Source: Syncephalis plumigaleata
Lineage: Eukaryota > Zoopagomycota > Zoopagomycetes > Zoopagales > Piptocephalidaceae
Assembly (NCBI GenBank): GCA_025201365.1
Contig: JAIXMF010000081.1
Coordinates: forward strand, 1 to 44,798
DNA: 44,798 nucleotides
Direction: 5' to 3'
Shown: positions 2,461 to 43,689 of the stretch, piece by piece
How the letters are laid out: each line of letters begins with the position of its first letter
Numbering within the stretch: the stretch's first letter is position 1
The notes under the pieces: model-generated
Seen by the model: the letters and a program-made list of their open reading frames with translations, nothing else
Told to the model about the DNA's origin: nothing
The model's database searches: none
Made by a program: the position numbers and the translations under genes

Positions 2461-5211
2461 TTAAGCCAAGTCACGAAACATTTCACGCGCCTTTTCCAGT
2501 CCAGATCGTCCTGTTACTGCAGATATCAAATGATTGACAAATTCAGGTTCGTACTAGTAGGTCAATATTGATGATGGTTAGTCACAGTATCGAATAGATT
2601 ATAAACGGTATAGAACAAGCAATAATTACCTGGCATGCACGTAAGCAGTCGGGTGAGAAATTGACCTCTAACAGGACAGGCTGCAGTTGATCCGTTAACA
2701 TCATGTCAATGCCGTAAACGGCGAATGCATCTTTATCGGCTGGCATATCGCTAAAACCTAATGGTGCCTGTTGAATGGTGGCTGCCTTGAATACATCTAG
2801 AGAGAAAGATATATATATAAATGTATTGATTCTATGATTATTACACTATGCTGTGCTACTTACTGCCGATAACACGATCAATGGCCGGTTGTACTTTGGA
2901 TTCCCACTTCAAACCCGGTTGTTCCCGTTCCATATCGGCAATGAACTTGGTGTGATGTAACTGTGTCATCGCGTATTCGCTATAGTTCATGACCGTAAAA
3001 TGCTTCTCATAATCGTGCAAGTCATCAAGTGAGTATGGTTTGTTGGCCAGTCGAATCCAGAACATACGATAAACGGCTACACGTAGTTGAGGCTTAGTCC
3101 CACGTACCAAGACAATATAACGTAGATCGAATTTACGACCATTGTATAATAGTGGACGGCATAGATAACGCTGAGCAATATAGGGTACAGAGTCACGAGA
3201 TCGGATTAATCGACTTAGATTATCTGTAACAGCAATACCAATACTACGACCGAAATTCCTAGTATTATTGTCAATACACGTTAAATAAACATTGATACAT
3301 TGCTGTTCCTCGTACATCCTATGCATCCACTTACCATGGTTTCATAATCCAAAGATTTTCATTACGTTTCTCGGCGTCATCACCTAGCGCGTTATCGAGG
3401 AAACATCCAACAACCGGTGCTAATTGATCCACCAAATTAAATGTTTCCGGATACCAGTCTACTCGTCCGTAAGTTTCCCTATCCAACCGTTTATTTAGTC
3501 ATGCCTCAGTAATGTACTTTACTCGTACATTGCCCCGATACTTACCAGATGAGTTGACTAAGTCGATTTTTATAGACAACGCATGCTTCACCCGGTAGCT
3601 GATTGACACATTGACCTGCCTGCAGTGTGTTAAACTTATCGGCGAAATCCTCGGTAAGCCATAGTAGATCGGCTGCCTCACGACGATCCACCAGTTCAAC
3701 GCCCGTCAAATGAAGATGCTCGCGTACGAATGTCGTATCCGTGTAGACACGTAGCGTACCCGTGGATGCAGCCGGTAGCATGGTGGGTCCCATAGGTACG
3801 GCAAGTTGCGCGTCAGTCAACGGGGTAATACGCGCGTTATTATCCTTGTAGCAACGAATAAGTTGCTCGGCCAAAGCTGCTTCTGGCGTTGAGAATGCGC
3901 AGAGATACGCTTGACGCGATAACAACTCGGTGATATCCGCGGGAACCATATCACGCGTAACACGATCACCACTCGACAAGTCTTGCATAGGATACATGAC
4001 ACAATAGGAGATGGTGTCACTCGTATTAGGACCGCGTATAAAGAGGAATGGAAGAACACAGCAATTGGGCGTGTTAGAATGACGAATAGCTGAACCAACC
4101 TACATGGCAATAAACGGATCATTTAGCTAGTGACATAGAATATCATTATCATTATGATATGTACTAATAATACCTCATCCATAATATCTAGAATAGTATC
4201 AAGTGATTAATAATAATGATAATAATAAATACCATGACACTTACACCATAGATTCTCTTGACGTTGCTCGCCCTTCTCGTTAAGCATGGCTATTTGATAA
4301 GTGCCGGCAAAACGCCACATGGCATTGAGTACGGCACCCACACGCCATGCTTTATTGGCGGATACATTACGATCCTCCATATTGTTCAGCACTTTCTGTT
4401 CTAATTCCTCGGCAGCCTCCCGTTGCTCATCCGATAGCGTTAATAGCTAATAGCAGTGCAATTCATTAGAAGATTGGATTGCTTACATTCTCACTTGTAT
4501 CGTCATAATCACTTACCGATAGTGCACTAATTATATCCCAATTCTCCTTGACCAATGTTGAACGAGCTGTCTCCTCGGGTACATTGGCTTGTTGAGCAAC
4601 AAGTCGCACCATAGCCTCGTCTGTACTTGACTTTTGCTCATTATCACGGGCTGTCCATGAATCGACACTCGCTTCTTCTTGCTCCTCCTCCTTCTCCTCT
4701 TCTTCCTCTTCTTCTTCAGGGATGCCCATCAAATTGGCCATGCGTTCAAGAAGCGTGTCGTTCTTTTCCAGTTCCTCTCTGGCCTTTTCAGGCGTCGTCG
4801 TCCAGGCATGATCCAATAGGAAAACATCGCTAAACGTATATACACATTATTAAGTAACACGCTTGCTATTTCTTTTTCTCGTCGCTTACCTTTGACTTGC
4901 TAGTTGTTGACCCTCAACTACTTGTAGTGTATACGGGCTGCCTAATACCGCCTTCTCCTCTTCGTCTAATTCCGCTAAACAAAAGTATCTACCAGCGTCT
5001 AGCGTGTCATTACACAATTTATTGAATAAATGCTTCGTTTAATATTAGCTATATGCTTGCGCTAAAATAATTATAGTACAACTCGACTTACTGGCCATAA
5101 CGATTCAGGCAGGCTAGCCAGTTGGTATCGGTGCAATTCAACAAACGCATTAAAGGCAATAACCTCGTCAGACACACTGCTAGGACGGGTTTCGACGGAT
5201 GGAATTGCCAT
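2461..5211 (-). CDS. TTLL12: Tubulin--tyrosine ligase-like protein 12 homologue
   Basis: Ten exons (5211-5092, 5032-4890, 4829-4517, 4446-4245, 4187-4174, 4099-3546, 3478-3335, 3258-2864, 2796-2630, 2553-2461) join in one frame to give 714 aa; human TTLL12 is about 644. Family landmarks appear in order: LDAGRYF near residue 50, DHAWTT and ERMANLMGI near 94-118, YIMDE (from a 14-nt exon), VTRDM, the ligase ATP-grasp segment LWIMKPW, FDLRYIVLVRG, DDLHDYEKHFTVMNY, and LLEVNFSPDC near the C-terminus. TTLL12 proteins combine a SET-like N-terminal part with a TTL-like domain and act on tubulin and chromatin, though their ligase activity is doubtful in animals. An acidic Glu run lies near residue 120. 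The start at 5211 gives the best N-terminal match; an upstream in-frame ATG at 5280 is less likely. Identification is very secure; exact exon ends are good to a base or two. Confidence 0.93.
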
Positions 5212-5334
5212 GATTGTAGACAAGTACGCGTTAGCAAGGTTGAAACAGGAAGAAAAAAGAAAAACAATGATGTAATACATTGTAATTATTGTGATAATTT
5301 ATTATTGATTTTATTAACAAGAATTCTTAATCTA

Positions 5335-5450
5335 AAAATTAATAATCTAATAAATGTGTAGAATTTTGTAATGGAATGTTAATAAATTTATTAACTTTTG
5401 TTAATGCCTTTCCCTTATCTTTTGTTAATGTTCCCATTAGTAGGTGTTGT
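5335..5450 (+). repeat. Fragment of a MITE-like repeat
   Basis: This AT-rich stretch closely matches the interior of the intact element at 23250-23483 (for example the shared run TGTGTAGAATTTTGTAATG and the following TTAATAAAT). The terminal ACAGGG end is not present here, so it is a truncated copy. It lies just outside the left inverted repeat arm. Confidence 0.65.
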
Positions 5451-5598
5451 TAACTTTTATCCCCTTCCCTTTCCATCCTCTCATTCATCGCTATCATCTC
5501 CCTTCATCCATTTCATCCGTGCATCTATCCATCCACTCAACGCTCTTTCATTCCATGTACGTTACATGCTATTCTATCTACTCTTTGTTATACATCTT

Positions 5599-6096
5599 GT
5601 TCCTTCTTCTTCTCTTACCATAAACAACTCTTATTCACTAATTCCACTGCTCATTCCTTTACTATTCTGTGCACTCCACTATACTCTTCTTGCTCTCTAC
5701 CTGTCTGTACTATTCGATGTAATTGCTCATATCACTGCTCTCCTAATATCTATTCTCCTCTCGGTTTGTCGACTCGTCTACTACTCTATTCATACACTCG
5801 TATCTCTATTGTTTATTTGTAATTTACTCGGTAAGTAGTGTATACGCGGTATTCACTCTATTCACTAGCTGCTGCTACTGCTCCTCTTTCTTGTCCTGTC
5901 AACTCTGTTTATTTGTTTATTTGTTTGTATTCTATAAGCATATGTGCTCATTCGCTCTATTCACTCCTACTGCTATCCATACTACTTGTCTCTCTGCTTC
6001 TATTCTCATTCAGCCAATAAACACCATATCAACTTCATACATATCGCTGTATTCTCTACCCTCTATTGACCATACTTTGCTTTCAACCAATACAAC
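5599..6096 (+). repeat. Inverted repeat, left arm (~500 bp)
   Basis: The pyrimidine-rich segment is nearly identical to the reverse complement of 8683-9208, apart from small insertions such as 9 bases near its outer end. It runs from GTTCCTTC to about CAACTAGTT. Long open frames in both arms are conserved only because the DNA is conserved. The arm contains a splice-donor-like GTAAGTAG, so it may be a duplicated leader with an intron start; I see no protein family in it. Confidence 0.8.
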
Positions 6097-7067: not shown

Positions 7068-8313
7068 ATGCGAGTAACTCTACATTCTGCATTGGCTATT
7101 AGCACTTGTGCTCTAGCATTGTTATCCCAGCTACCGAGTGTTCACTCAATCCTTGGTGATTTTGATGAAAATGGCAAGCTATTCATATATGATCTATCTG
7201 ATGACTGCTAACTTGTTTATAGGTAATTATCCTATAAACACCTTTGCCCAGGAATACGTTATGGCATACCAGAAAGAACTTGGACTATCGGATATACGCT
7301 GGGGCGGTGGAAATAAGTATGAGCTTAGACTAGCTCGGGTAATTTGGAACAACCAAGTTGCCTTTATGAAATGCGACAGGGCATCTATTGAAATAAGAGC
7401 ATTCAACGTAAGTGTATCTATTTATTATTCAAATAACCTCACTCATCATATGATATAAAATAGGCATTGAACGAAGCAAAGAGGTTGACAAGCCTCGACA
7501 CAATAGGTCGACAAAATGTCATGGATCCATTGCATCAGTTTGAATTTTACAAGGAAAGCCGTACTAGATATTTCTGCTATCTTTACAGCTATATCGATGG
7601 TACAGTTCTACCAGAATACTTTAAAAAACATACCATTTCCCATGCATTTATTACTGCTGCCAAGATATTGCCTGAGGTTATTAAAGGTAAATGTGATGCT
7701 TATTCATATAGCATGATTACTAATTGCTTTATAGGTGCAATTTACCTTTACAATGCTGGTATTATTCATGAAGATCTGTATCCAAAAAGTAAGTAAACAT
7801 TACAATAATTGAATACGCTAACAATATAATGTAGACATCATGATACAGTTAACTCCAACTGGTGAAATAGCTGGAGTAAAGATCATTGATCTGGATGCAA
7901 CAGAAGTATTTAGAAAGGAACAAGGCTGGCAACCTATAAACCCGAATACCAATGAATATTTATCACTGAATCCACGTCAAAGACATAGAGGTTGTGACGA
8001 GCTCAAGAAGACGATAGTTAAATTCTTAAAAGAATTTGTTTCCCTCGAGAAAGAAAAAAATCCTTTCGATCCTAAATACGTATTGACCGAACAAGCCACG
8101 CAGAACTATTTAGAAAGCTTTAAGCAATTTCCACGTTATGCCGAAGTAGAACTAGGCAATGTGAAGGCAGCCTTTTCTGCGGTACAATACCTTCTTAAAG
8201 CGTTGTACACCTTAATTGATGATCCATATACTTGCTCCTCTCCTATACGCGCATCAAGAGGACTACAGCCACGTCCTCGTATACCTAGTAGACCAGCCAG
8301 TCCCTCGGCCTAA
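7068..8313 (+). CDS. Secreted protein kinase-like protein (paralogue A)
   Basis: Five exons (7068-7155, 7223-7407, 7464-7686, 7735-7788, 7835-8313) give 342 aa. Residues 1-27 form a clear signal peptide ending near SVHS. The rest looks like a diverged protein kinase fold: a glycine-containing strand WGGG (56-59), a VAFMK segment with candidate beta-3 lysine K79, a catalytic-loop-like HEDLYPKN (177-184) with D179 and N184, and IIDLDA with D202 in the place of the DFG aspartate. Key residues are therefore kept, although HED and DLD are unusual. Two paralogues at 9776-11199 and 13223-14379 share the exon layout, including an internal exon of exactly 54 nt. The gene sits between the inverted repeat arms. 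Exact family and substrate are unknown; kinase-like is my inference from motif order. Confidence 0.78.
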
Positions 8314-9775: not shown

Positions 9776-11199
9776 TCATACTTGTGCAGCAATTAGTTTA
9801 TATGCATCAGTATCCATAAAGTGCAGCACCATTTTAGGTTCTTTAAGATTTAGCATTGCGTCTCTCAGCATTCCTAAGATTTCTTTCTGTAATTTGTATG
9901 CGTCCCACTGACTACTTGGAGGAGGGTCATGCGTAAAGTCCTTGCTTAGTAGACCATTGTAATCCGTGAGTAGTTTGCCGATGAATTGACCAATTTCTTT
10001 GACATCATACATGAAAGAAGGAAGCATTGGCGCCAATTCAGGCGATGGTGACAAACCAACATTGGTCATTACTAATCTTCTGAAATCCTTGTGGATAATT
10101 GCATAACCAAAGTTAATAAGCTTGATGTCATGTATAATATTTGATTTATATTCAGCAGAAACCCAGACATCTATTATGATAGCAGTTAGATTCATTTATA
10201 TACTAATAGCAATGACTTACGATTTCCTCCCATAATGTTGTACACGACTCCTATTTCATTAAGGGTTGAAACAGCTAAATAGTAGCAGTGTTATGATTAG
10301 CATTATTATTCAGACTATTGCTACTACTGATATACATACCTTCCATTACTCGAGCAACCAAACGTGGTGTATTTTTGACTAACTCAAATGTAGGAACTCG
10401 ATTAAGGTAAGCCGTCATAGAGCTAACCTTCTTGTTAGGTAAATCAAACACAAAACATCCCATTTCCTCATCTGCCGTTAGAGCACTATCTATACGTTTA
10501 AATAAAACGGCATTTAATTTCCTCCTGTATTCTGGATCGTCTATTCTCTCGACATACTAAAAATGATAACAGCAAAAGTGTAAGTTAACGATGTCAATTA
10601 TTATAGCTGTAACTTACATCATAAAATCTCTTTGCATTTTCATGTTCCACGTTTCCCTTATCACATACTACAAGCAGTTCACCTTTACCCATCTCACTTT
10701 CAATTTTATATCGAGAAGTAGCCACAGATCCTTGCCATACCATCGGTTTAAATTTGTACTTTCCGGAGAAATGAATAATTAGATCCCTCCTGTTCTTTGG
10801 ATGTGGTGTCGTATGTATAGTCATTCTCTCTGCTGATTGGGGTTGTGACATATGTTGTGATTTGTCATGTTTATTACTTGGATGATCAGGAGATAATGCT
10901 GCTTTACTCCATTTAGCGGACCTAAATTTTATCTTAGCACTTCGTTGTTGATTCCATTGTTGTCCTTGGTTGTCGTTTGGATGCATTGGCGTAGCTACAT
11001 TATTCCAGTTGTTGCTTTCAAATTGCATATTAGTATTTGGCTGCTGATGCCATTGTTGTCCCGTCATTGGCATTTGATTCGGATTGTTATTGGTGAATGG
11101 AGATGGTGTACCCCACATATCCATGCCATTTGTGTGATGAGATAACATCATGCACACACACAGTGTGATTGCAGATAATGAAGTCGTGTTGTATCTCAT
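9776..11199 (-). CDS. Secreted kinase-like paralogue B with Q/N-rich arm
   Basis: Four exons (11199-10618, 10556-10340, 10274-10221, 10170-9776) give 415 aa. The ATG at 11199 is preferred because it starts directly with a signal-peptide-like segment; an in-frame ATG exists at 11259. A long arm of about 100 residues rich in Gln, Asn, Met, Trp and His follows, then the kinase-like region shared with paralogues A and C. The exon boundaries and phases match paralogue A, including the 54-nt exon. Catalytic positions are degraded: the HED loop region reads NIMGGN, the lysine position is lost (LLVVCDKG), and the DFG position is INFG. It is probably a secreted pseudokinase; its role is unknown. Confidence 0.75.
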
Positions 11200-12833: not shown

Positions 12834-12974
12834 ATGAAGTTCTCTGCCATTATCGCCATTGCCGTCGCCGTCGTCGCTGCCACCAGTCTGGTTGCCGTTG
12901 AAGCAGCACCTGCCTCGGATCGTCGTGCTACTGTATCTGCTCAAAGTTTTAATCCTTGGAGACCTATTAGTTAA
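12834..12974 (+). CDS. Short secreted peptide (46 aa), family copy 1
   Basis: A single exon encodes 46 aa. Residues 1-24 are a textbook signal peptide (MKFSAIIAIAVAVVAATSLV, then AVEA). The predicted mature peptide begins APASDRRA and is only about 22 residues, ending NPWRPIS. The same signal peptide and the DRRA motif recur at 43504-43689. RR could be a Kex2-type processing site. The stop TAA lies in TTAAGCA, and the following ACAGGACAAGAACAT resembles the tail of the micro-exon gene at 37-41 kb. The small size would make most gene finders miss it. Role unknown: peptide effector, pheromone-like or cell-surface peptide are possibilities. Confidence 0.7.
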   Translation: MKFSAIIAIAVAVVAATSLVAVEAAPASDRRATVSAQSFNPWRPIS

Positions 12975-13222: not shown

Positions 13223-14381
13223 CTATAGTAGTCGTGGTCGTGGTTGGTGTGCTTGCTGTGCTTGTACTAGCATACTCCTCAATGCAACCGCAAAGCTAGA
13301 ACAGTCTCGAGTACGTGTCGCTATGGTAGTTATCTGAAGCACTGAAATATAGGCAGCTACAGCTTGCTCCAATGTCGCTTTGCTTCGCATTGGGAAATAT
13401 GCTAAATCAGCTTCTCGTGCTTGTTTTATATATTGTGCTATCCTCATATGGTCCTCAGGAGTAATATCTAGTGGATTTGCCGCAATTTCTAGGTTAATCT
13501 TGCTTGAAATATAATCGTAAAGCTCCTCATGGTAGCCAGTGCATGCATAAGGACTTGGTGATCCAGGACTGCTCTTTGCTGGTGCGATATTGGTATACAA
13601 CTGCTTTGTAGGTGGTTGCGGTCTTTCTGTTACCTCAAAGACAACAATCTTTACCTTCAATTGTCCATTATTTTGTGATTCAACAGAAATATCTACATTT
13701 ATACGTTAACTAGATGTGATATAACTTGGTAATGCTTACCGCCTAAGTCTAGTTTTATATCTTTAATACCGGCATTGTAAAGGTAAAGGAAACCTATGGA
13801 ATAGTTAGTGCATGCACTGAATACCACAGATAAACAGCTTACCTTTAAGTATTTGTGGTACGACTTGGTTGAGAGTAACAAAACGATCTAAATAGTTTTG
13901 TTGATGTATGAATTGGTCCAAAGGCTTATCACCAACATTACCGTAGATAAAACAGTTTCCTGCAGGCTGAGATGGTCCTGCAGGAACCGGTATAAATTTT
14001 AGTGGATTCCTGACGTAATTACGATATTCTTTATTGGCACCTCTATTTCGTGCGGCCACAAGTGCCTTTTATACAAGAGTAAGTAGAAGAAGTATAAATG
14101 ATATCCATTATACTTACATCAAATGCTGCTTTCTCAATATTAATAGGCGTGCATGTCATATATGCGGGCTCTTCACCATACGTAAGTTTAGCATAACTAA
14201 CAACACCGCCTACTCCACCCTTCCATTGCACATTTGATATACCTTCATTGATAGCTCTTTGCTCTATGTAGTTACGAGCGTATAGATTTGAACCACCAAT
14301 TACTTGTGCCTGGGTGGCACATGATATCAGCACCAATGCTGCGGTTATCGTCAATGTCGTCTGATGAAGTAGTGAACGCAT
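13223..14381 (-). CDS. Secreted kinase-like paralogue C (pseudokinase)
   Basis: Four exons (14381-14118, 14065-13843, 13793-13740, 13692-13223) give 336 aa with an N-terminal signal peptide (about residues 1-25, ending near ATQA). Exon sizes 223 and 54 nt and their phases are identical to paralogue A, proving common descent. YLYNAGI, which precedes the catalytic loop, is conserved, but the loop itself reads KDIKLDLG in place of HEDLYPK, the beta-3 lysine position is Thr (AYMTC), and the metal-binding aspartate region reads VVFEV. All expected catalytic residues are therefore lost. The C-terminal half is helical and ends in a Gln/Pro-rich tail. Function unknown; likely a secreted binding protein built on a kinase fold. 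Confidence 0.77.
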
Positions 14382-14944
14382 GTTATTCGTGATATCTAGT
14401 AGAATCCAAAGATAGGATAGACGAGCATGTATTTGTGTGGGTAGCGAGAGAAGAGAGAGAAAAGATGGTTTGATGCAAAGAAAGTAGCAATATTATCGTC
14501 TCTATTTATGTCGTAAACAGCTCAGATGTGCCATTCTCCTGACTGGAAGGATGCTTCGACTGTAAACTGAGTATTACGGAGCAAAACAATATCAGCTCCA
14601 CATGTCAATTGCCATTAACAGTATAGCAATCACCAGCTGTATTCTGTTTTAGTTTATCTTGGTAGTTCAGAATGCGCCATTCTATTCCATCCTACTATGG
14701 ACAAGTGGACGTTTCAGTTGTAGCTCGTGTACTAAGGGAAGGAGGAAACATTGCACGATATCATCTGCCATTATTAGCATGCTTACTATAGAAAAGGCAT
14801 TCATTCAAACCAATTGTGTATCGACTAGCATGTTCATGTTCAATCGACCATTACATCGATGATAATGAATGGAATAACGAATCAATGAATACACACACAT
14901 GTTACTATTGCAATCTGTTGTTCTCTTTGAGGAGGTATCGAGAT
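14382..14944. other. Intergenic, no gene seen
   Basis: This divides the start of paralogue C from the end of the convergently placed GatB gene. A purine-rich run lies near 14445-14465. Open frames are short and have no splice partners or recognisable motifs. Confidence 0.5.
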
Positions 14945-36860: not shown

Positions 36861-37071
36861 TTATATCACATCATAAGTGTATCCATATGAATGGCAACGT
36901 ATGATTAATGTTTGTTTATTCAATAAATGATTGAATGATGATCTTGTAGATATATTTCTTGATCCAAGGAATAATGACTTGAGTGGTATGGACACTGAAG
37001 GGTCTTGCACCAATCCATTCTTGACTTGCATACCACCTATAATATCTACTTGATGATGTCCTTGTCTTGTC
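36861..37071 (-). other. Last exon of micro-exon gene, probably 3' UTR
   Basis: A clean acceptor (GATTACAG) precedes 37071. The downstream sequence matches the minus strand at 43503-43390 (ACAAGACAAG, then CAAGTCATTATTCCTTGG, then TATATCTACAAGATCAT and ATTGAATAAA). The match stops at AATAAA, as expected for a shared 3' end and poly(A) signal. The length differences visible between the copies (-51, +3, -3) are multiples of three, so coding cannot be excluded: one frame is open to 36861 and another to the conserved GAATAA. Confidence 0.5.
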
Positions 37072-37072
37072 C

Positions 37073-40000
37073 TGTAATCATAATGGATTAGTATGAGTAC
37101 AATTATCATGTGGATTATTACTTACTGCTTATTCCTATCATTCAATTAACGTGTATTGTATTGCAATTAGATCGACGTATCAATGCTAAAAATGCTAGCT
37201 TACATCCTAGCATCCATGATCATACGGGAATTGTATGTCACACTATGATTAATGCTTCATGTCTACTAGCTGACACTTTCAGCTTACAAGCTATCATGCA
37301 GCCATACGTTAATCATTTGTGATATTTCGATTAGTATACCGTAGATTGTGATGGTGACATCAACCTACATGTTGATTCGCTTCATCCAACTAGGCCATAC
37401 AACAGCGGTTTAGTTTTACAAGATGCTTGACCAAATCAAACAATAAAACTTACTTCTTTCTGTACATGATTATATGTAGATTGTACATTCCATTGTAATG
37501 AGTGCATGGTGCATCATTGTTCAAATACCAACTTACTTCCTATTATAATAATAATGATACAAACACATATAGTATTATGATTAGTATACCGTAGATTATA
37601 ACCAGAATGCTGGCTTACCCTCTGACATTTGTAGTTTTATGTGAATCATTCAATGGCATTACCATTAGCGTATCACATCTTGTAATCAGCATGTCAGCTT
37701 ACCTCCTATTACATGTAATCATACACGAAACATAGAGCACTTAGTAATTAGTTCATCCAGTATGAGTATCGAATAATAACTTGCCTCCTATCATTTGTAA
37801 CCACATATGAATTGTATTCATAACGATTAACACATCGTATCCTGTAATGATAATGCTAGCTTACTATCTGTTACATATAACAATAAGCAAATTATACACC
37901 AGCTTACAATTAGTTCATCGTATGAAATGACCATTATTTTAGCTTACCCACTGATGCGCATAGGCGTAAGTGAATTGTATACCGATTACGATTAGTTCAT
38001 CGTATACGGTAGTCACTGTTTCGGCTTACTTTCTGTCACGTTCAAGTATAAGTAGTTGCATACCAATTTACAATTAGTTCATTGCGTGCCGCGACTGCTG
38101 TGCAAACTTACTCCCTGTTACATGTAACAATACACGAATTCCATACCAATTTACGATTAGTTCAACGTACGCTGTAGTCGCTATTTTGACTTACTCTCTG
38201 TCACATTCAAGTATTAGTGAATTATGCACCAATTTATAATTAATTCAACGTATGTTGTAATCACTACTTTGGCTTACAAACTGATGCACATAAACTTGCA
38301 ATTAGTTCAGCGTATGTTGTAATTGCTATTATGACTCACGAACTGATGTGCATAAGCGTAAGTGAGTTGCACACCCATTACGATTAGTTTGTCGTATGAT
38401 GTAGCTGCTATTCTGACCTACCGGCTGATGTGCATAAGTGTAAGTGAGTCGTATACCAATTACGATTAGTTCACCGTATGCAATAATTGATATGCAAACT
38501 TACTCTCTGTTACATGTAGTCATAAGTGAATTATTTACCCCTACAATTAGCACATGACGTGCTATCATTATTATTATGACTCACGAACTGATATGCGTAA
38601 GCGCAAGTGAGTTGCACACCAATTATGATTAGTTCACCGTACGGTGTAGCTGCTATATCAACTTACATCCTGTCATAAGTGATTATAGGTGAATGGTATG
38701 CCGATTTATAATTAGTTCATTGTATGCTATAGTTGCTATATAAACTTACTGACTGAAACGCATGAGCACAAGTAATTGCACACCAGTTTACGATTAGCCC
38801 GTTGTTTGCTGTAACCGCTCTTCTGACTTACCACCTGATATGCATAAGTATAAGTGAATTGTACAGCAATTACGATTAGTGCATCGTATACGGTAGCCAC
38901 TGTTTTGGCTTACTTTCTGTTATGTGTAATGATAAATGGATTGCACATCGATTATGATTAGTTTATTGTGTGCCGCGACTGCTGTACAAACTTACTCCCT
39001 GTTATACGTAATTATAAGTGAATTGTACACCAATTTACGATTAGCACACGACATGTTATAATTGATATGCAAACTTACGTTCTGTTATATGTAATCATAG
39101 ATGAATTGCGCATCAATTACAATTAGTTCAGCGTATATTGTAATTGCTATTATGACTCACGAACTGATGTGCATAAGCGTAAATGAATTTCACACCCATT
39201 ACGATTAGTTTGTCGTATGATGTAGCTGCTATTCTGGCTTACTGCCTGATGCGCATAAACATAAATGAGTCGTATACCAATTTACAATTACTTTACCGTA
39301 TGAAATAGTTATTATGTTAACTTACCTCCTTTTATATGTGATCATACATGAATTCCACACCAGCTCACAATTAGTTCATTGTATGTTGTAATCGCTATTT
39401 TAACTTACTCTCTGTTACATGTAATAATAAATGGATTGCACACCAATTTGCTATTAGTTCATTGTATATTGCAGGCATCATACCCACTTACCCACTGCCA
39501 TTCATAATCATACGTTGATTCCACATTGCAATTAACGCATCACTCATTGTCATTATAATAAAAACTTACTCCTCGCTGTACGTTTTCGTATGTGGATCAC
39601 ATGCCACACTCCAATTAGTGCACTGTCTATTGTCATTAACATGCTAGTTTACCTTCTGTTGTACGTGATAGTACGTGGATTGTATTCCACACTCCAATTA
39701 ATATCTCGTGTGCTTCAATCGAAATAATAACTTACGGCCTATTGTATTCCATAGTCATAGGTGAGCTACATTTTGGGATTGTAGTCCACGTGTTAACTTA
39801 CACTCTATGTCGTGTGATCATCATATACACACGTATATGAATTGTATGTTGCATTATGATTATTGTGATTATTATTGGAATGCTAGCTTACTTGCTTCTG
39901 CATGTGGTGTTACAAGTCAATCATGTATCATGCTACAATCAGCATACTGTATCCTATAGTCATCATAATGACTTGCCTCCTATTATTCGTAATAATAAAT

Positions 40001-41172
40001 ATATACTATGATTAGCATGCCGTATACTGACACTAGAATGCCAACCTACAGTCTATGCCGTGTAATCATCCATCATGAACCATGTTCCTCATTTCGATTA
40101 ACACATTACATATCACGATAGGAATGTCTAGTTACCCTCTGTTACATGGATGCATATGTGAATCATCAATCAATTTGTAATTAACTGATCGCATATTGCA
40201 ATGATCATCACTTACATACTATTACTCGTAATCATATGTGAATTGTATGCCATAGGGTAATGAGTACATCGACTAGTAAGACTGGAATGCTAACTTCTTA
40301 CAATCTATTATGTATATATATGTGTGTAATGCATTGCTATTAACACATCATGCATTAGTATGGAAATGGCCACTTACATACTAATGCAATCATATGGGAA
40401 GAGAATGATGATTGTTGTTGTTGTTAGTAGTACATTATACGATGATGCTAGACTAGCAACTTACATCCTGTTACAGGTCATCGTACACGTATCATGACAT
40501 GTCAATTTGTAATGAGCACATCGTATGCTATGATCGAAATGATCACCTACTTGCTGTCATATGTGTGTGTGTGTGGAATGACAAGTGAAGCAATTGTGCC
40601 ATTGCAATTAGTATGACGTATACTGCAATCAGAATACCGCCCACTTACAATCTATTACGCGTCATCATCGATGAATCGAGTGCCACATTCCAACGAGTGC
40701 TCGCTTACCCACTAATGCATGCAATCATATGTGAATCGAATGGCTCATTACAATGATACTAGTAGCTTACGTGTTCCTATGCATGATAATCATACGGGAA
40801 TCGATTGCCACATTCCAATGAGCGTATGGCATAGGATCATCGTGATTCACAACTCACCTCCTATCATACGAGTATTGCAATTAGTACATTGTATGTTTAT
40901 TTAGACAGAATATCAACTTACGTCTGCTTCTAGAATAGTAACATATGATTTTGATTTACATTCCAGTCAACACGACATATGTCATGCTCACTCGTTGTTT
41001 AACTCACCAGCTATGATTGACAGCATCATATGTGGCATCTTCATCAGTATCGCAATCAACGTCATACGATATAGACTTACCATCTATTGATTGTCATTAG
41101 AAAGACCATTAGATAATAGTATTACGATTAGTATGTTGACTAGTATCAATGTGATGATGATGATAAAAATAC
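37073..41172 (-). repeat. Array of ~50 intron-like units (~80 bp each)
   Basis: Each minus-strand unit has the order GTAAGT/C, 30-40 variable bases, CTAATCGTAA(A)TTGG (branch-like), 25-35 bases often including TTACATGTAA, then CAG/TAG, three variable bases and the next GTAAGT. Identity between units is moderate overall but high at the splice-like positions. A few donors are GTGAGT, GTAGGT, GTAACT, GTAAAC or GCAAGT, all usable splice donors. The spacing (70-95 bp) equals the normal intron length in this genome. The unit near 37369 is degenerate and the one near 40922 is irregular. Confidence 0.85.
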
Positions 41173-41257
41173 CAGGGGAATTTGATGATATGGATGTTGT
41201 AGCATTGACTATAAGCTGGCCATTATTGTTATTATTGTTATCAGCAGATGATTCCAT
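37129..41257 (-). CDS. Micro-exon gene: ~82-aa protein from ~50 exons
   Basis: Exon 1 is 41257-41173 (MESSAD, an Asn run, QLIVNATTS). Micro-exons follow, given by lowest coordinate and minus-strand bases: 41081 ATG, 41008 CTG, 40922 CAGAC, 40858 GAG, 40771 GAACAC, 40709 TGG, 40649 ATT, 40551 CAA, 40465 GAT, 40378 TAT, 40302 ATT, 40216 TAT, 40136 AGG, 40050 ACT, 39977 GAG, 39892 AAGCAA or CAA, 39802 AGT, 39736 GCC, 39653 AAG, 39570 CGAGGA, 39492 TGG, 39409 AGA, 39326 GAG, 39243 GCA, 39161 TTC, 39079 AAC, 38996 GGA, 38914 AAA, 38832 GTG, 38750 TCA, 38667 GAT, 38585 TTC, 38504 AGA, 38422 CCG, 38340 TTC, 38278 TTT, 38195 AGA, 38112 GGA, 38030 AAA, 37948 TGG, 37865 ATA, 37785 GAG, 37703 GAG, 37619 AGG, 37537 GAA, 37454 AAAGAA, 37288 CTT, 37204 GAT, 37126 GAATAAGCA. 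The frame is open to the TAA at 37131-37129; the other two phases hit stops. Function unknown. An alternative 5' model extends exon 1 into a hydrophobic segment (GIFIIIITLILVNILI). Confidence 0.6.
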
Positions 41258-41941
41258 GTTGATATTGTCCTTATGGGAGAGCAAGAGAAACAAACAAACA
41301 AACAAACGAAATGGAGTAATGAGTATGGAATAGAATAAAAAGAGAGATATGGTCAAATAGTATGGTAGTTCTAGGGAAGTAGTGCAGGCGCTTTTGACCA
41401 ATGTAAACGACACCGCATTGACACCTTACCACTTCTGCATTTCTTTACCGTGTTTCTTCTTCGTGTTCTTTTTCGTGTTTCTGTACGTTTTCTATGCATA
41501 TACATATTCAGTTTGCGTTGTATTCCTTTGTGCCTTCTACGCGTTTGTACTCTCACTAGCTTACGATAGTAATTACTCATAGCATATATTCTACTCTACT
41601 CTGCATAGTTATTCATACTATTGTGTACACTTTTACTGCTTGTAAACTACGATTACTGCGGAGAAACACTTTCTTCCGTAGCACTTGATCTTGCCACGAT
41701 CTACTCCTGTCTAACTAGTTTAGTCGCTATTTCTTTCTGTACAACAAAGCCATACACCCTGCTGTACTCATTGCCGTTGTATTTATCGTATTTCTCTCCT
41801 ACAATTACATGCTATTTTTATTCAGTTATCTCGTCATAGTCATAGTAAGTGCTTTTATCCTTCACCGTGCTAATAACCGTTATAGCGAGTATACTAACAA
41901 CTATATGCTATGTTGTAGGCACAGTTACACTTCTCGTAATT
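41258..41941. promoter_or_regulatory. Shared divergent promoter and leaders
   Basis: The micro-exon gene (-) and the gene at 41942 (+) start head to head about 680 bp apart. The right part is a pyrimidine-rich leader containing a probable 5' UTR intron, 41845-41918: donor GTAAGT, branch TACTAAC, acceptor TTGTAG. A CAAA repeat lies at 41284-41307. Open frames here are therefore largely untranslated leader or intron. Confidence 0.55.
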
Positions 41942-43503: not shown

Positions 43504-43689
43504 TTAAGCGTTGCCAAGCAGTTTGTTCTCAAAATCTGCAATAGCTATAAGTGGATCTCTTGGCATTCTGTTAAGAGAATTATCGGTTTGAGAAGCACGA
43601 CGATCCAGGGCGGGACCAGCTTCAACGGCGACCAGACTGGTGAGAGCGACAACGGCGACGGCAATAGCAATAACAGTAGAGAACTTCAT
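43504..43689 (-). CDS. Short secreted peptide (61 aa), family copy 2
   Basis: A single exon encodes 61 aa with signal peptide 1-24 (MKFSTVIAIAVAVVALTSLV, then AVEA) and a predicted mature peptide starting GPALDRRAS and ending ENKLLGNA. Signal sequence, DRRA motif and 80 bp of upstream DNA match copy 1 at 12834. The mature part is longer by 15 residues. The stop TAA in CTTAAGCA aligns with the TAA of the 9-nt exon in the micro-exon gene, and the 3' tail is shared. Possible Kex2-type RR cleavage. Function unknown. Confidence 0.72.
   Translation of the reverse strand: MKFSTVIAIAVAVVALTSLVAVEAGPALDRRASQTDNSLNRMPRDPLIAIADFENKLLGNA

Follow-up and report, generated by a model that had tools for sequence, protein, structure and literature searches.

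How short can exons become, and can a gene consist almost entirely of exons that hold a single codon? This question is raised by a contig of Syncephalis plumigaleata (Zoopagomycota; GenBank assembly GCA_025201365.1, JAIXMF010000081.1), whose full 44,798 nt are called the window here. The window is contig C364 of the 383 contigs (32.6 Mb) that were searched as the genome. The genes mark this genome as eukaryotic, and its beta-tubulin (L062) is best matched by animal-type chains with names such as beta-1 and beta-4B, which would agree with an opisthokont, perhaps an early-diverging fungus. A preliminary description of its minus strand had reported about 43 units in which any three bases stand between an AG and a donor-like motif, as well as three units with six bases and one with nine, and had proposed that the units are introns and the triplets exons, each triplet under separate selection. 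Our analysis of the letters of the genome indicates with high confidence that the array is a protein-coding gene, from which the ordinary spliceosome would remove 51 short introns by intron definition and join 44 single-codon exons with a few longer ones.

The motif AG-NNN-GTRRGY was found 44 times on the two strands of the 44.8-kb window, compared with a mean of 7.27 in shuffled sequence (largest of 100 shuffles, 17). The minus-strand interval 37198-41085 contains 39 of these sites, and the other five are elsewhere in the window. The array units are tandemly related and measure about 82 bp each. In an alignment of 25 units from the middle of the array, variability was near its highest in the three exon columns and near its lowest in those of AG and GTAAG, so that the earlier observation of constant splice-like flanks around freely varying triplets holds. 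The resulting gene model (Table 1) runs on the minus strand from 41344 to about 36900 and has 52 exons, namely a first exon, 50 internal exons and an exon of the 3' untranslated region (3'UTR). Forty-four internal exons are 3 nt long, three are 6 nt, and one each is 8, 9 and 21 nt; the unit counts given earlier were close, but they lacked two exons, the frame-setting one of 8 nt and the one of 21 nt. The 50 internal donors comprise 48 GT and 2 GC, one of the two being required by the decoder, and include some weaker ones (GCAAGT twice; GTAAGA, GTAACT and GTAAAC once each). Between the internal exons lie 49 introns of 57-95 nt (median 79), 12 of which have a length divisible by three. A loose YTVAY motif stands 12-60 nt ahead of the AG in all 49, and the strict form CTAAY or TTAAT in 36.

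Read unspliced, the minus strand within the array offers no stop-free run longer than 57 amino acids. After the predicted splicing, the frame is open from the ATG at 41257 to a TAA in exon 51 and encodes 89 residues (predicted protein MESSADNNNNNNGQLIVNATTSISSNSPDAEADEEHWIQDYIYRTEQSAKRGWREAFNGKVSDFRPFFRGKWIEEREKELDEANQHLDE). The phase after exon 1 is 1 and stays so through internal exons 2-4, where the first 8-nt exon resets it to 0; it is 0 from there on.

Copies of this gene were then sought in the genome. The 5' block (41060-41300) had 32 matches, of which 27 covered all or almost all of its length at 88-100%, and the 3' block had 214 candidate places, of which the best 40 were scored, every one with E <= 2.9e-64. 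Most copies follow one plan. A near-constant series of 5' codons comes first, then a middle of variable length and sequence, and then one of two endings: either a short one, whose final internal exon carries a TAA, or a long one with the constant series CTT GAT CTT TTT GGA ... GAA ATT CTT. In both cases the 3'UTR exon with AATAAA follows. Two dissimilar upstream regions, class A and class B, join the conserved part at CTCTTTTTATTC, and this point, where conservation begins, is the putative cap site or transcription start. Many of the relatives in this genome are probably also chopped into mostly one-codon exons.

Twenty of 21 copies (all except L042) were decoded by dynamic programming that scored donor, acceptor, branch motif and intron length and took no account of frame or, up to 30 nt, of exon length. 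Each copy yielded 42-93 internal exons, 1,251 in total, of which 1,038 measure 3 nt and 1,190 a multiple of three. All 1,251 donors are GT or GC (72 GC), as the decoder demands. The 61 exons of other lengths include 30 of 8 nt, and 29 of these 30 occupy two conserved places; the second one (AATAAAGG, in the long copies) fixes the frame, which a TGA or TAA then closes in the final exon. After the first decode, exons of 1-2 nt were re-set to 3, 6 or 9 nt if an AG further upstream permitted it; four exons in total became 6 nt long. Since this step favours multiples of three, the length and stop counts quoted here precede it, while the divergence counts, the ATG-to-stop models and the exon and intron tallies of the window use re-set exons.

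Stop codons are absent from the 3-nt exons where the proposed frame would forbid them. The phase-0 stretch contains 887 such exons without a single stop, and 50 of the 61 sense codons are present among them. When the 732 exons distinct by their flanks were shuffled position by position, a mean of 35 stops arose, and the lowest value in 2,000 shuffles was 21. In the ten copies whose phase-0 stretch has only exons in multiples of three, 0 of 655 codons were stops in phase 0, compared with 18 of 645 and 70 of 645 in the other phases. Clustering to 247 units with unlike flanks (raw decode, phase-0 stretch alone) left 0 stops against 11.0 expected (P ~1e-5); an earlier version with 257 clusters, which included re-set exons and 3' exons that are not whole codons, gave 0 against 11.3. 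The raw AG-NNN-GTRRGY count gives 18 stops in 914 sites in arrays, compared with 4 in 19 outside them. All 18 are exon ends that overlap their own donor (AG/TAA/GTGGGC type), and none is among the decoded exons.

Relatives without introns read across many of the predicted junctions. In a six-frame search of the genome, the predicted spliced protein, taken as a composite, matched continuous open reading frames (ORFs) on contigs C220 and C318 at 48% over residues 5-125, with equal scores and no stop. Further continuous frames were found on C325 (with two stops) and, shorter, at C223, C112 and C329. The DNA matches of the intronless C325, C223 and C112 end at query base 128, which is the last base of exon 1, and that of C329 at base 78. 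Beyond the end of exon 1 the intronless relatives run directly into the predicted codons: their DNA joins the 5'UTR, exon 1 and the codons without introns, L055 has CATGATTCTGAAGCTGCCGGG at the place of exons 2-4, and the 21-nt exon is present in L053, L054 and L055. The 5' and 3' codons are present in them almost one for one. In L054 the last codons and the 3'UTR exon meet where the model places their junction, and a TGA is formed across it. A junction was counted as spanned if the 16 nt around it aligned without gaps and at least 11 agreed, with the best partner of the 19 spliced copies tried. On this measure L054 spans 35 of 94 junctions (partner L040), L057 23 of 53 (L030), L055 20 of 61 (L032), L053 15 of 43 (L046) and L056 17 of 53 (L030). 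With the exon order shuffled 20 times, the means were 1.5 for L054, 0.85 for L053, 2.05 for L055 and 0.8 for L057, and the maxima 4, 4, 7 and 3, respectively. The proposal that the units serve as introns and the triplets as exons thus appears well founded, as judged by the exon lengths in multiples of three, the lack of stops among the phase-0 3-nt exons, the closure of the frame in the window copy and the relatives that cross junctions beyond the shuffled control. No relatives were found in viral and prokaryotic contigs. Among five predicted proteins, Pfam assigned no family to four and gave three weak hits below the cut-off for L035.

The middle of the array changes faster in its exons than in its introns. 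Divergence was counted over 91 pairs of 14 copies (L032, L034, L036, L039, L047 and L048 were left out); the pairs share history, and their counts are not independent. At aligned sites of the middle, exons differ by 32.0%, introns by 14.0% and splice sites by 6.2%. At the 5' end of the array the exons differ by 6.8% and the introns by 6.1%, and at the 3' end by 5.7% and 7.1%. Separate selection on each triplet, as had been supposed, is supported in the middle, where exons diverge more than introns, but not at the two ends, where triplets and introns show similar conservation. The gene belongs to a family, the first of two described here, whose ends are conserved and whose middle changes fast. 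Compared codon by codon, middle one-codon exons were the same in 315 cases, changed in sense in 424 and changed silently in 49, so that 424 of 473 changes alter the residue. The corresponding numbers were 982, 165 and 34 at the 5' end and 590, 33 and 0 at the 3' end. Ten chosen pairs showed 92 residue-altering changes and 6 silent ones. In fourteen chosen pairs, where binning by flank divergence somewhat inflates the contrast, 162 middle and 3' exons had changed, 9 of them silently and none to a stop. Among single-base changes in the middle, 49 of 197 are silent against 21% by chance, which is about chance level; the case for diversifying selection therefore rests on the excess over introns and on the swaps of two or three bases. 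Whole-unit exchange could contribute, since triplets change more where their flanks do. The diversity may reflect selection exerted by a partner or rival organism.

These findings would fit a simple mechanism. Each intron would use its own donor (mostly GTAAGT or GTAAGC), branch-like motif and YAG, and because it brings all signals itself, a 3-nt exon need add nothing to recognition and its letters would be free. We infer that the locus is transcribed and that its introns are completely removed, one after another, to give an mRNA of about 0.53 kb for an 89-residue, helix-prone protein. By eye, the introns of ordinary genes in the window are also short with GTAAGT-type donors, and normal splicing machinery should therefore suffice in principle. 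Since the internal exons are mostly multiples of three, gain, loss or skipping of a unit would usually alter the protein by one residue, and the array may have grown through duplication of intron-plus-codon units.

Several observations weigh against the proposed gene structure. The site profiles of the decoder were first trained on AG-NNN-GTRRGY, that is, on 3-nt units. The frame closes from ATG to stop in 8 of the 20 copies (window, L029, L030, L031, L035, L043, L045 and L046), in L029 only through entry into the last exon. The models of L037, L038, L041 and L047 have no stop at all, those of L032, L033, L034, L036, L039 and L040 meet an early one, and exon 1 is not recognised in L044 (at a contig end) and L048. 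The ten copies that have an exon whose length is not a multiple of three in the phase-0 stretch show 2-8 phase-0 stops each. In at least L037 and L038 these trace to one 1-nt exon created by a nearby second AG; in the others, single-base losses (by decay or assembly error) or decoder error would account for them. The most variable middle junctions are not covered by the relatives, whose own middles differ and align poorly, and these junctions are therefore supported by the frame and the stops alone. Finally, the relatives could be older than the introns.

How far do other explanations account for the same data? A tandem satellite with incidental splice-like motifs and meaningless triplets would explain the related units of about 82 bp, but it leaves the stop-free 3-nt exons of phase 0, the window frame that closes from exon 1 to a stop and the uninterrupted homologues without a reason, and we regard it as most improbable. 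Scarcely better is the prospect that the array is one long intron, removed stepwise by recursive splicing at AG/GT with the triplets omitted from most mRNAs. AG-NNN-GT units do look like recursive splice points with a 3-nt insert, and a 3-nt exon should not support exon definition; yet the intronless relatives retain the codons, the triplets avoid stops and vary as codons, and true recursive sites, which have exons of zero length, keep no exon sequence. It is rather more conceivable, though still unlikely, that the window copy is decayed and that only some relatives function. Six of the 20 decoded copies run into an early stop and others fail to close, and the array of the window appears to be another copy of the one on C135, with a different end. 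The window copy itself, however, is open from ATG to stop, and its 50 internal donors are all GT or GC, as the decoder required. The arrays of the window and C135 are 93-97% alike in three queries, and their two endings differ. Further pairs of array contigs are C268/C340 and C80/C340. This suggests that the window and C135, like the other pairs, are separately assembled haplotypes.

The 3'UTR exon also led to a second family, of genes predicted to encode short secreted peptides. The loci that have this exon but lack the 5' block (L049-L052) begin with a signal-peptide exon that ends in RR and continue with one-codon exons. L050, which was modelled in full, has 23 exons including the 3'UTR exon and reads MKYSVIIAIAVAVVALTSLVAVEASPALDRRAPVPVGIPGGFRAQDIKHPDLPPQ. 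Its first-exon region had 202 candidates in the genome, of which the best 40 were scored, at 92-100%, and its protein gave 147 matches, interrupted or not, among 150 scored of 172 candidates. The second family thus has the 3'UTR exon of the first and, in the members looked at, its architecture. By eye, a signal peptide is present in the second family, and none is obvious in the first. Two intronless genes of the second family lie in the window (Table 1), and the 300 nt upstream of the one at 12834 are 84% alike to the microexon locus L049; to the upstream region of L052 the likeness is 79%.

Which form came first? We prefer, on the sequence evidence, that the intronless copies arose through intron loss by reverse transcription. 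The opposite course, in which the intronless genes came first and a wave of intron insertions between codons produced the arrays, is a possibility of some weight that we nevertheless hold to be the weaker one. In an unrooted tree of the 5' sequences, the four intronless rows are more diverse (72-79% alike) than the 19 microexon rows (91%), with a split supported at 100/98. L057 has the class B upstream region (83-86%), and the upstream region of the gene at 12834 resembles that of microexon genes. On the other hand, it is difficult to envisage introns entering between nearly all codons in a single phase, and a single event of reverse transcription strips all introns at once. The homology of L054 begins at the putative cap, and its upstream sequence matches no copy. 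C318 showed neither a poly(A) tail nor a convincing target duplication; the longest word shared there was 9 nt.

A full-text literature search, with supplements outside its scope, returned no chain of 3-nt exons among the matches listed. The nearest known systems are micro-exon genes, bicycle genes and lone microexons. Micro-exon genes (MEGs) of schistosomes have exons of 6-36 bp and are described as an alternative-splicing system (PMC5825161). According to that account they share with our genes a coding sequence of mostly very short symmetric exons and fast-evolving families, and their secreted or membrane-anchored products may have a parallel in the putative signal peptide of our second family; they differ in that 3 nt is the rule here, outside 6-36 bp, and that our first family has no obvious signal peptide. 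The gene would work like a micro-exon gene at the limit, with an exon size outside the definition given there. The bicycle genes of aphids average about 17 exons, with internal exons nearly all in phase 2, and megacycle has more than 100 microexons (PMC9168663). As portrayed in that source they resemble our genes in their many small internal exons and divergent family, of putative effectors in aphids; our genes use phases 0 and 1 and mostly one codon per exon. Lone microexons of 3 bp or 1 nt are reported in Drosophila hth (PMC7392893) and plant APC11 and VPS55 (PMC8831610), which indicates that spliceosomes can use exons of 1-3 nt. In the text consulted, these are isolated within ordinary genes, whereas dozens are chained here. 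Intronless APC11 copies are attributed there to intron loss mediated by reverse transcription, and VPS55 has strong GTRAGT donors (PMC8831610). Introner elements are homologous introns that are dispersed among unrelated genes, and the multiplication of related introns in one genome recalls those of fungi as presented in PMC4457414. Here an 86-nt unit query of limited sensitivity gave nine matches, all on contigs with known arrays.

If the proposed structure is true, it would bring the exon down to its logical minimum, a single codon, dozens of times in succession and across many genes. It raises the question of how a spliceosome joins 50 exons that are too short for two factors at once without skipping any, and it suggests why such genes could evade standard annotation. 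Exon shuffling, the gain and loss of introns and diversifying selection could all be studied in them one codon at a time, and the uninterrupted relatives would provide natural controls. A more speculative thought, which we offer tentatively and consider doubtful, is codon-by-codon exon shuffling: the introns would be cassettes of recombination and duplication with one codon each, so that residues are rewritten singly with the frame intact, and exon skipping could give many isoforms. The tens of first-family genes and a good part of the 147 second-family loci would then form a large peptide-making system kept in the genome, in which uninterrupted copies bank finished versions.

Table 1. Predicted features of the array gene and intronless second-family genes in the window
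Feature	Positions	Strand	Description
Exon 1	41173..41344	-	Putative 5'UTR from CTCTTTTTATTC (41344); ATG 41257; end ...TCCCCTG before GTATTT; phase 1; block common to aligned copies
Intron 1	41084..41172	-	GTATTT...CTAATGACAATCAATAG; missing from intronless relatives L053-L057
Exons 2-4	40922..41083	-	ATG, CTG, AAGCAGAC (8 nt); 1+3+3+8 nt lead to phase 0; encodes D-A-E-A-D
Exons 5-21	39570..40860	-	Near-constant 5' codons GAG GAACAC TGG ATT CAA GAT TAT ATT TAT AGG ACT GAG CAA AGT GCC AAG CGAGGA (EEHWIQDYIYRTEQSAKRG); similar series in decoded copies
Exons 22-47	37454..39494	-	Variable middle; 25 one-codon exons and one hexamer (WREAFNGKVSDFRPFFRGKWIEEREKE)
Exon 48	37369..37389	-	21 nt, TTGGATGAAGCGAATCAACAT (LDEANQH); 21-nt exons number 40 across the 20 decoded copies; uninterrupted in L053, L054
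Exons 49-51	37126..37290	-	CTT, GAT, GAATAAGCA with in-frame TAA
Terminal 3'UTR exon	36900..37071	-	AATAAA at 36920-36915; could be aligned in 20 of 21 copies; joined to the coding sequence in L054; position of 3' end approximate
Intronless second-family gene	43504..43689	-	Signal peptide, RR, short variable peptide; 61-aa ORF; directly followed by sequence like the first family's 3'UTR
Intronless second-family gene	12834..12974	+	Signal peptide, RR, short variable peptide; 46-aa ORF; TTAAGCA joined to AACAGGACAAG (3'UTR-like)

Two other readings of the ends of the gene were rejected. A 113-aa hydrophobic ORF runs from exon 1 into intron 1, but the copies and the relatives favour the splice TCCCCTG/GTATTT. 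A coding terminal exon, in the frame DKTRTSSS..., was likewise discarded, and this exon is taken as noncoding because the stop lies one exon earlier (except in L029) and differences in the alignment break the frame. The TAA within the last internal exon is found in seven short copies (window, L031, L032, L034, L045, L046 and L047); the copy nearest to the window, L029, is without it.

Some individual copies have features of their own. About 1.7 kb of unlike sequence apparently breaks the array of L039 at ~4286-5997, where the decode is meaningless. The middle of L040 has a threonine-rich run of one-codon exons (ACG, ACA, ACT, ACC), compared with the charged middles of other copies. By eye, the intronless copy L060/L055 on C325 starts just downstream of a tRNA-Glu gene. 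L056 and L055 are near-identical intronless copies, and an extra piece in L056 resembles sequence downstream of the L053 copy. Elsewhere in the window, Pfam found nothing in the ORF at 7822-8313. The ORFs at 7117-8313 (plus strand), 9776-10195 (minus) and 14043-14492 (minus) look related and show, by eye, kinase-like or signal-peptide-like stretches.

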